Made by a program: the position numbers and the translations under genes. Positions 1-14,863 of a DNA stretch of 63,671 nt are shown one piece after another. The notes beneath the pieces are model-generated. The model did not search any database. It saw only the letters and a program-made list of their open reading frames with translations, and was not told where the DNA came from. The stretch is from a virus, in the IMG/VR virus record IMGVR_UViG_3300042894_002234, positions 1 to 63,671 of that record, one strand, 5' to 3'. The first letter of the stretch is position 1. Each line of letters starts with the position of its first letter.

Positions 1-210
1 GGTGATGCTTGTGTATCTTTAACAGCATCAATACCTAATGGTCAATTTACAGGCACAGGTGTATTAAACAATCAATTTTGTCCCAATATTTCTGGGAATG
101 GTACCTTTCCTATTAGCTATTCGGTTAATAGTGCAGGATGTACAGCAACTACTGTAATAAATGTTACAGTAAACGACTCTGTTAACTTAGGTTTAATAGA
201 ACACAACTAA
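1..210 (+). CDS. C-terminal fragment of Ig-like surface/adhesin protein (5' end outside window)
   Basis: The frame is open from the first base to a TAA at 208-210 and gives 69 residues; the start lies left of the window. The residues (G-Q-F-T-G-T-G-V, N-Q-F-C-P, then G-C-T-A-T-T-V-I-N-V-T-V) follow the pattern of Ig-like repeats of flavobacterial cell-surface adhesins: a GxFxGxGV turn followed by a Cys-containing final strand. The stop overlaps the next gene's start (TAATG), so the two are probably translationally coupled. No CHU_C sorting domain is present at this C-terminus. It could be a tail-fibre tip or an exported surface protein. The family link is by pattern only. Confidence 0.6.
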   Translation, partial: GDACVSLTASIPNGQFTGTGVLNNQFCPNISGNGTFPISYSVNSAGCTATTVINVTVNDSVNLGLIEHN

Positions 211-767
211 TGAAATTACTTCTTGCTTTACTATTTCTAGTAAATGTATCTTTTGGACAAAGTATCCAAGAAATATCTTTATGTGATTTTATAAAGAAAG
301 AATATACATATTTTATTTTTAACCAAGAAGCTGATTTAAAATGGGTTACGCCTTATGGTATTGCTTATGATAAATCAGTTACAGTTGAATGGAGTACTCC
401 TGGTACTTATACAATAACTGCTGAATATATTGATCAATACACTTGTAATTATCAAAAAAGATTCTTTGTAGTTAAGGTATCAGAATGTGATAAATCAACA
501 ATATTCTTTCCAAATAGCTTTACACCTAATGGAGATTATTTTAATGATGTTTTTGAGGTAAAAGGATATAACATAAAGAAATATCAATTGCTAATCTATA
601 ATAGATGGGGTGAACTTATCTATGAAAGTAATTCACTTGATGATATGTGGGATGGATACTATAAAAAATATATGGTACAAGAAGACGTATATGTTTACAA
701 GGCATTATGGCAAGACGTAAAATCAAAATGGGGTTTCAAAACTGGTACTGTTACTGTTTTATACTAG
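210..767 (+). CDS. Exported protein with CHU_C / type IX secretion C-terminal domain
   Basis: The 185-residue protein begins with a clear Sec signal peptide (MKLLLALLFLVNVSFG, predicted cut before Gln17). A small Ig/PKD-like beta domain follows (about 20-95, ending T-Y-T-I-T-A-E-Y). Residues 99-185 match the gliding-motility-associated C-terminal domain (CHU_C, TIGR04131/PF13585): F-x-P-N-S-F-T-P-N-G-D, then L-L-I-Y-N-R-W-G, W-D-G and a terminal G-T-V-T-V-L. In Bacteroidota that domain directs substrates through the type IX system to the cell surface. The start overlaps the preceding stop by one base. A virion protein would not need a signal peptide, so a surface role on the infected host is more likely (inference). 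It is remarkably small for a CHU_C protein. Confidence 0.85.
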   Translation: MKLLLALLFLVNVSFGQSIQEISLCDFIKKEYTYFIFNQEADLKWVTPYGIAYDKSVTVEWSTPGTYTITAEYIDQYTCNYQKRFFVVKVSECDKSTIFFPNSFTPNGDYFNDVFEVKGYNIKKYQLLIYNRWGELIYESNSLDDMWDGYYKKYMVQEDVYVYKALWQDVKSKWGFKTGTVTVLY

Positions 768-2101
768 TTTCATTTAGCTTATACTCCCAACCTGGAAAAA
801 ATTCTAATTGGTATTTTGGAACAAATGCAGGAGTAAGTTTTAATACAGGTGTTCCTGTTGCTCTAATAAATGGAGCTGTAGTAACTACTGAAGGTGTAGC
901 TACAATATCAGATAACTCTGGTAATCTCTTATTCTATACAGACGGTGTTACCGTTTATAATAGAAACCACTTAGTTATGACTAATGGTACTGGATTATTT
1001 GGTGATGCTAGTTCAACCCAATCTGCTGTTATTGTTGAAAAACCAGGTGCTGCAAACATATACTATATATTCACATCAGATAATGATGCTGGACCAAATG
1101 GTATTTGTTATTCAATAGTAGATATGACCTTAAGTTTAGGTTTAGGAGCAGTAACAAGTAAAAATATTTCTTTACATACACCTTCTTGTGAAAAGCTATG
1201 TGTTGTAAGACATTGTAATAATGTAGATTTTTGGGTTATATCTCATGATTGGAACAGTAATGTTTTTAGAACATGGTCTGTAACTAATTTAATGGTAGGT
1301 AATGTACAAGCTTGGTCAGCTACAGGTATTGTTCCATCTGGTATTACTCAAACATCATATGGACAATTAAAAGCAAGTTCTGATGGTAAAAAAATAGCTG
1401 CTTGTTATTATGGATTAACAGGATCAGGTGGAAATAAATTACAGTTATATGATTTTGACAATGCAACAGGTTGGTTGAGTAATGCTCAAACATTAGCATC
1501 AGATCAAGGTTTATATGGTTGTGAATTTTCACCTAATAACAAAGTATTGTATGCTAGTACAAATGGTGGAGCACTAATTCAGTTTGATTTATGTGCAAAT
1601 CCTATTTCTAGATATCTTGTATATAATACTGGTCCTTTTATGGGAGCATTACAAATAGCTCCTGATAGCAAGATCTATGTAACTAGAAATGCTACTAGTT
1701 TATCAGTTATAAACAATCCTAATATTGTAGGTATAGGTTGTAACTATACAAACTTAAATATCAGCTTATTAGGAAGAAGTAGTAGATTTAGTTTACCAAA
1801 TCATGCATCTTATTATAATTATCAACCGTTAATATTAAATCAACCTCAAACTTTAACCTGCACATCTTTTCAATTTACTGCGCCTATATTGCAACAAACT
1901 TGTAATACTGCAAATTATAATATTTTATGGAATTTTGGAGATGGTACAACGAGTACTGAAATAAATCCTATACATGATTATTTAATACCAGGAACTTATA
2001 CTGTAACTTTTAGCATAGGTACTGGTTGTGTAAATGATCAAGTAACGATAAATGTAACAACAATCAATTCAATTTTATTATCACAAATTAATCACAATTA
2101 A
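707..2101 (+). CDS. Exported beta-propeller-like protein with C-terminal PKD domain
   Basis: The protein has 464 residues. Its N-terminus is signal-peptide-like: basic MARRKIK, a hydrophobic segment, then L-Y-S-Q. A start at 728 is also possible, with an A-rich leader, but it would lose the basic n-region. The body has the flavobacterial secreted-protein pattern N-W-Y-F-G-x-x-A-G, T-E-G-V-A-T-I-S-D, N-L-L-F-Y-T-D-G, with repeated strand motifs suggesting a beta-propeller to about residue 370. A PKD domain follows (W-N-F-G-D-G-T-T-S-T, then P-G-T-Y-T-V-T-F). Its 5' end overlaps the CHU_C gene by 61 nt in another frame. It has no CHU_C domain itself. It looks acquired from a Flavobacteriia host; its role may be adhesion or surface modification. 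Confidence 0.75.
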   Translation: MARRKIKMGFQNWYCYCFILVSFSLYSQPGKNSNWYFGTNAGVSFNTGVPVALINGAVVTTEGVATISDNSGNLLFYTDGVTVYNRNHLVMTNGTGLFGDASSTQSAVIVEKPGAANIYYIFTSDNDAGPNGICYSIVDMTLSLGLGAVTSKNISLHTPSCEKLCVVRHCNNVDFWVISHDWNSNVFRTWSVTNLMVGNVQAWSATGIVPSGITQTSYGQLKASSDGKKIAACYYGLTGSGGNKLQLYDFDNATGWLSNAQTLASDQGLYGCEFSPNNKVLYASTNGGALIQFDLCANPISRYLVYNTGPFMGALQIAPDSKIYVTRNATSLSVINNPNIVGIGCNYTNLNISLLGRSSRFSLPNHASYYNYQPLILNQPQTLTCTSFQFTAPILQQTCNTANYNILWNFGDGTTSTEINPIHDYLIPGTYTVTFSIGTGCVNDQVTINVTTINSILLSQINHN

Positions 2102-14217: not shown

Positions 14218-14646
14218 TTAGTTGATTATAAAGTAACCAGTTGCAGCTAAGAGAATAAATGTAATGATATTATATTTTGTCTTAGTTCTTCTATGTTTCT
14301 TAGACTCTTCTGCTAATTGTTTTTGTAGTTCTTTATTATAACTATCAATCATAATGATTTGATCTTCCTGTATAGAAATAATTGAATCTTTGTTTAAGAT
14401 TAAAGCGTATTGTTTATCAGTAATTTCTCTAAGAATATCTACTTGGTCTTCACAAAGATTTAATTGTTCTTTGCATTCTTTACCATTTATTAATCCTGTT
14501 GCAATCTTTCTTAATTCAACAGAATTATAGCATCTAATAGTATCCTTACCAGTTTGAGCGTATGATAGAGTCCAACTGCATAGAATTAGCAGTATTAACA
14601 AATTTAATTTTTTCACGGTAGACGTATTTGATTTTAGGTTTGACAT
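14218..14646 (-). CDS. Spanin-like protein: signal peptide, coiled coil, C-terminal membrane helix
   Basis: 142 residues. A hydrophobic N-terminus (L-N-L-L-I-L-L-I-L-C-S-W, then S-Y-A-Q) is a Bacteroidota-type signal. A helical, coiled-coil middle with paired Cys follows, then a basic stretch and a C-terminal membrane helix (I-I-T-F-I-L-L-A-A-T-G-Y-F-I-I). This is the layout of a unimolecular spanin, which fuses inner and outer membranes at lysis. The lipobox candidate L-I-L-C has Leu at -1, so lipidation is doubtful; type I cleavage at S-Y-A is the alternative. It starts inside the upstream spanin-like gene (101-nt overlap), as in Rz/Rz1 pairs. Confidence 0.6.
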   Translation of the reverse strand: MSNLKSNTSTVKKLNLLILLILCSWTLSYAQTGKDTIRCYNSVELRKIATGLINGKECKEQLNLCEDQVDILREITDKQYALILNKDSIISIQEDQIIMIDSYNKELQKQLAEESKKHRRTKTKYNIITFILLAATGYFIIN

Positions 14647-14863
14647 TTTGTAAAGTATCTAGTTTAATATATAATTCGTCAAGTTCATCATTAAGTTGTT
14701 TGTTTATATTCTCAATAGTCTCAATTTTCTTTTCAAGATTTGGATCAATAACTATACGTACTCTTTCCTCATACTTTTTAATAGACAAAAGAAATAAAAG
14801 GAACATGCAAATAATATTTGCTACTAGGCTAATTTTTAGTTGGATATCTTCAGATACTTTCAT
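14546..14863 (-). CDS. Inner-membrane spanin-like protein (Rz-like)
   Basis: 105 residues with one N-terminal membrane helix (about 11-28) and a long periplasmic coiled coil rich in Glu, Lys, Ile and Leu. This is the usual i-spanin plan. It overlaps the following spanin-like gene by 101 nt in another frame and the preceding holin-like gene by 14 nt. No enzymatic motif is seen. Together with its neighbours it forms a lysis cassette read against the surrounding early genes. Confidence 0.6.
   Translation of the reverse strand: MKVSEDIQLKISLVANIICMFLLFLLSIKKYEERVRIVIDPNLEKKIETIENINKQLNDELDELYIKLDTLQNVKPKIKYVYREKIKFVNTANSMQLDSIIRSNW

Follow-up and report, generated by a model that had tools for sequence, protein, structure and literature searches.

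Type B cargo of the type IX secretion system (T9SS), such as SprB-like proteins and the grappling hook protein GhpA, combines a signal peptide, immunoglobulin-like (Ig) or PKD domains and a C-terminal CHU_C domain. Type B substrates need PorP/SprF shuttles, which are sometimes shared (PMC9143113, PMC12618676), and orphan type B substrates exist (PMC12618676); a cognate PorP/SprF gene nearby is common, but not universal, and is therefore not strictly defining. Phage-encoded T9SS cargo has already been reported: Cryophage encodes cargo with type A sorting domains that vary between relatives (PMC7468147), and T9SS sorting-domain proteins lie near BACON open reading frames (ORFs) in crAss-like phages (PMC6949934). 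What appears to be new here is a split, tagged form of a T9SS type B surface protein, found at the start of the IMG/VR virus record IMGVR_UViG_3300042894_002234 (positions 1 to 63,671; this whole stretch of 63,671 nucleotides [nt] is called the window). Its genes specify a two-Ig protein (A), a CHU_C protein (B) and a head (C), all predicted to be exported, and A and C both end in a short C-terminal tag. On balance, we think it probable that these genes specify a split T9SS type B surface protein, a phage-made complex joined by beta-strands that uses the T9SS and a shuttle of the host.

The cassette departs from ordinary type B cargo in that the chain is divided into separately exported subunits and no phage PorP/SprF shuttle was found. 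As far as the accessible part of the source goes, Cryophage cargo consists of single-chain enzymes or PA14 proteins that bear type A domains, with no split cassette and no tag reported (PMC7468147); B, by contrast, matched only the type B profiles TIGR04131 and CHU_C. The crAss-like phage proteins are likewise T9SS-labelled products of Bacteroidota phages, but a multi-subunit cassette is not described for them (PMC6949934). Type V pili (FimA/Mfa1) of Bacteroidota resemble the cassette in their beta-sandwich subunits, the C-terminal strand of which has been proposed to complete the next subunit (PMC5789003). In contrast to these pili, the cassette has a T9SS-domain anchor, and its mature N-termini mostly begin with Q rather than with a lipoprotein cysteine at +1; no Pfam match to a FimA/Mfa-like pilin domain was obtained in A, B, C or X (another exported head protein of ∼200 amino acids [aa]; “heads” below means X, C or other families). 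Literature searches, which left out subscription papers and preprints, returned no split, tagged cassette. The features of the window are as follows.

1..210, plus strand: protein A, 3' end only; exported two-Ig/PKD_6 adaptor (full-length copy of 185 aa at L003:8260-8817)
187..207, plus strand: C-terminal tag of A, LGLIEHN-COOH (motif in nearly all A proteins)
210..767, plus strand: protein B, exported anchor with signal peptide, PKD/Ig-like domain and CHU_C T9SS type B sorting domain (Pfam, TIGR04131, AlphaFold2)
210..257, plus strand: signal peptide of B, MKLLLALLFLVNVSFG then Q (sequence, rule-based)
492..764, plus strand: CHU_C/TIGR04131 sorting domain of B, residues 95-185 (profiles and structure model)
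707..2101, plus strand: protein C, exported head with putative propeller and PKD domain (start may be ATG 728)
1862..2059, plus strand: PKD_4 domain of C (Pfam)
2081..2098, plus strand: C-terminal tag of C, SQINHN-COOH, agreeing with the tag of A (sequence)

An earlier reading of the letters alone (the sequence-only reading) had credited the 185-aa protein B with a Sec signal peptide and a complete CHU_C domain and had proposed a CHU_C/TIGR04131 profile search. Both profiles score above their curated cut-offs (Pfam CHU_C PF13585: E = 8.3e-16, 58.3 bits versus 27; TIGR04131: 53 bits versus 35), B being the sole TIGR04131 match within the whole window record, and by eye the signal peptide is clearly of the Sec type, with cleavage after SFG. 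An AlphaFold2 model of B with 46 relatives reached a mean predicted local distance difference test (pLDDT) of 94.1, and its residues 95-185 make up a single Ig-like unit similar to the T9SS C-terminal domain of RgpB (5ag8_A, Z = 7.0, root mean square deviation [rmsd] 2.1, 65 residues), a likeness for which other Ig-like domains score a similar or higher Z. The only match of the B profile among PDB sequences was the CHU_C region of GhpA (E = 3.9e-14). For the next gene, C, the signal peptide (by eye) and PKD domain (PKD_4, E = 7e-10, 39 bits) named in the sequence-only reading were borne out, but its propeller has no Pfam match and stays putative. The C frame overlaps the B gene by 61 nt; in L009 a methionine stands at the position equal to the alternative start at ATG 728. 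That reading had placed a T9SS signal on the exported proteins, which is correct for ORF 210-767 but not for ORF 707-2101: A and C have no T9SS signal of their own, and CHU_C is absent from A and from the heads. The region it had marked (210-2101) begins one gene late: nt 1-210 are the truncated 3' end of a third exported cassette gene, which is intact in the near-identical contig IMGVR_UViG_3300043539_001124 (PKD_6 in the full-length copy, E = 1.2e-7). Its broader proposals, Sec and then host T9SS export, a host-like ancestry and a role away from the virion, remain the best reading, but its pair of proteins gives way to parts of a cassette with one T9SS signal.

The window proteins form a conserved multi-gene cassette, found in many Bacteroidota phages, and are not lone morons. 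Profile scans fetched 79 viral loci with B and 70 with A, and A was directly followed by B in 93 fetched viral loci (some contigs were fetched twice). A variable exported head usually adjoins the A-B pair, the commonest gene orders being X-A-B (57 loci), C-A-B (9 loci) and A-B (8 loci); relatives of C on three other viral contigs show the order C-A-B, compared with A-B-C in the window. TIGR04131 matched in 19 of 20 cassette phage records, each time including a short B-type frame of 188 to 211 aa, and the A profile (E ≤ 1e-20) matched 16 of these 20 records and none of 395 Bacteroidota genomes. A further profile scan (A10) returned known loci only, and promoter-like sites in the cassette region were no more frequent than in shuffles. 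No cultured isolate in INPHARED gave a match covering most of A, B, C or X; the hits were limited to uncultured huge phages and short human-gut fragments. It is very improbable that bacterial DNA was misfiled as viral and that the cassette is an ordinary host locus: the closest non-phage relatives of the C head are indeed host genes, but the window has matches to a phage DNA polymerase, replicative helicase and primase, carrier contigs range from 5 kb to 322 kb, and the distribution of the A profile points the other way.

Comparison with host genes suggests where the parts came from. The C family in 80 host loci mostly occupies one long frame (roughly 650 to 2600 aa), and in about 50 of them a B/CHU_C match lies in the same frame as the C domain, which is what a T9SS type B adhesin should look like; among the exceptions are about ten short frames of the Pontibacter type that lack a B match. 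A-like domains in host genomes were all in frames of at least 376 aa (three genomes searched, two matching). The huge phage LR745206 has A and B fused in one 732-aa chain, in which the A profile stops at the tag isoleucine (residue 558) and mature B begins near residue 563; in LR756502, a single chain of 1670 aa comprises X, many Ig-like repeats, PKD and CHU_C. These fused chains indicate that the cut in the cassette falls at an interdomain strand. Judged by sequence, the phage version looks like a single-chain host surface protein divided into separately exported parts.

In most phages, the heads and A end in [IV]-x-[HT]-[ND]-COOH, usually as ...P-x-L-S-P-I-[QS]-H-N; the window tags are LIEHN (A) and QINHN (C), and a variant, I-x-[I/L/V]-[N/D/Q], is found in L005, L008 and L016. 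The motif was derived from the first nine phages, and it recurred in nearly all new A proteins of a scan (A9) that selected on other peptides. Across 29 A proteins with 36-57% identity to the first, I(-4) and H(-2) never vary. A survey of 1259 unique phage ORFs gave 61 motif bearers that are not members of the A, B or C family. Each of them looks exported: 52 satisfy a crude signal-peptide rule, and the remaining nine are X-family proteins with a hydrophobic start. Of the other ORFs, 921 had no signal-peptide call, and the motif is on none of these. Over 14 phage records (15 fetched stretches), cassette genes alone end in the tag. The penultimate tag residue of A agreed with that of the heads of the same genome in 35 of 39 pairs (shuffles: mean 23.9, maximum 30), a figure that includes one mislabelled B and is inflated by shared ancestry. 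This agreement spans proteins with unrelated bodies in one phage: the ending of one head family, YTN, SHD or SHN, follows that of the local A, and in L240 both X and A have a terminal HY. Agreement within genomes suggests that the cassette, and not the host, encodes the partner of the tag.

The tag also bears on whether the proteins are independent exported morons, a view in which B reaches the surface by the T9SS, A and the heads work on their own in the medium or periplasm, and a left-over linker or translation-coupling sequence accounts for the tag. We regard this as unlikely, although many tags run right up to the following start codon (TAATG overlaps) and phages carry ordinary fused T9SS type B proteins too: 44 of 51 viral loci with CHU_C but without A, C or X (L102-L180) encode long single-chain CHU_C proteins of at least 300 aa. 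The tag is written with varying synonymous codons (CAT/CAC, AAT/AAC, ATA/ATT/ATC), and for 26 tagged genes no start lies on the same strand within 25 nt, which argues against a purely nucleotide signal; the sharing of one tag by unrelated bodies within a genome and the A-B adjacency kept in 93 loci also speak against independent action.

How a tag might join two subunits was examined in L198, where X, A and B share a single reading frame and two TAA stops were read as serine, giving a natural read-through X-A-B chain. Its AlphaFold2 model had a mean pLDDT of 79.4 and a predicted template modelling score (pTM) of 0.42. Two solved PKD domains aligned to this model (4r5o_D: Z = 9.5, rmsd 2.0, 80 residues; 1l0q_A: Z = 9.3, rmsd 2.1, 82 residues of chain 303-386), both from residue 383 to 485-487, i.e., from the tag region of A (382-393) into the first domain of B, skipping the signal-peptide linker; many tandem-Ig matches begin at 187-191, which is the tag of X. 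Since the aligned range starts in the tag of A and resumes in B, the tag seems to replace strand A, and in the model the tag of A appears to supply strand A of the next domain. Foldseek lists for both models were filled with generic tandem-Ig chains and add little. The best internal match of the A tag within its own protein fell at the junction of domains 1 and 2 in 20 of 29 cases, a supportive but post hoc observation. An A-domain profile run against host frames gave three usable junctions only, and the natural fusion in LR745206, which fits a strand of one subunit completing the next fold, was used instead.

Several points weigh against a strand-joined complex. Strand insertion in X-A-B was read from aligned ranges only, at a pTM of just 0.42, and a construct joined via signal peptides favors insertion into the neighbor. 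B alone is predicted with seven strands in a high-confidence fold; hence a groove, if one is left open, may be small. At host PKD junctions, tag-like strands preceding the following domain, sought with a regular expression, numbered 24 versus 17.8 in shuffles (maximum 29), which is not significant. Seven A-family ORFs lack the strict motif, some of them representing other tag classes. Finally, the PorP/SprF shuttle profile TIGR03519 had no match in the 20 phage records; the positive control matched in 3 of 3 host genomes (8-14 matches each).

Lack of a shuttle in these phage records means that export would require one from the host. In the strand-joined complex that we favor, Sec would carry A, B and the head each separately to the periplasm, as their signal peptides suggest. 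The tag of the heads and A would be a remnant of the strand that once joined consecutive Ig/PKD domains in a single-chain ancestor, and it might insert as a donor strand into the N-terminal Ig/PKD domain of the following subunit (head to A, A to B), as sequence and model point to. B, the sole CHU_C subunit, would cross the outer membrane via the host T9SS and a host PorP/SprF-type shuttle, the other subunits being carried along with it or meeting it outside. The result would be a phage-made fiber on the surface of the infected cell, its head exchangeable between phages. More generally, and tentatively, with less than even confidence, we propose that phages have evolved a new kind of surface structure that is secreted and assembles itself: a T9SS cargo chain cut at its interdomain strands, with subunits that rejoin by donor-strand insertion, exchangeable heads and several proteins riding on one sorting domain.

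The missing shuttle also fits T9SS interference, in which the host translocon or shuttle would be taken up by the complex or by B alone, so that host adhesins or phage receptors are no longer exported, i.e., superinfection exclusion by jamming. B is an orphan type B substrate in these records, and shuttles can be shared by type B substrates (PMC12618676); however, a jammer would need neither an exchangeable tagged head nor a conserved A, and we think this explanation quite unlikely. Another destination would be the phage particle. PKD/Ig-like domains are likewise phage-encoded in T4 Hoc and BACON proteins, and Ig domains are common on phage particles (PMC13370021); cassette proteins might decorate the particle or its fibers, attached in the periplasm or after lysis, and in L004, L005 and L008 the cassette adjoins fiber-like genes. 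Those adhesins, however, are treated as particle-displayed, whereas signal peptides and CHU_C would be useless in cytoplasmic virion assembly and point to the host surface, and the window cassette sits among small early-looking and replication genes. A virion role is accordingly improbable.

For a surface complex, receptor masking, adhesion and T9SS interference are possible benefits to the phage, and our guess is that receptor masking or adhesion is the likeliest. If the surface complex is real, many Bacteroidota phages would remodel the infected-cell surface with a modular, non-covalent fiber, the T9SS could export assembled multi-subunit cargo, and the cassette would be a natural case in which a covalent multidomain adhesin has become a strand-exchange assembly, with a small tag-and-groove pair usable for T9SS display. 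The finding makes it testable whether phage-made surface proteins decide superinfection or the behavior of infected cells.

Other genes near the cassette were also recorded. A further exported family adjoins it in three phages (L003:7035-7772, L004:13954-14730, L005:10571-11350); its members end in YDLxGRL..., resembling a T9SS type A domain that stops after the first motif. Large exported neighbors at L213:665-4657, L224:2421-4289 and L239:3802-4770 have GxxxxxK-like tails that recall T9SS type A domains. In two phages (L006:9321-9989, L013:7309-7977), the gene immediately upstream of C-A-B encodes a beta-rich-looking exported protein of 222 aa, which could be an outer-membrane partner; it matched neither a PorP-type nor any other Pfam family. 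A C-type domain also occurs inside 968- to 970-aa phage proteins without a signal peptide (L017:7470-10382, L018:7473-10379, L021:7473-10379), with very large genes on either side, possibly for use in the virion. Elsewhere in the window, two overlapping small membrane/signal-peptide ORFs (14218-14863, minus strand) stand amid plus-strand genes and possibly represent a spanin pair.
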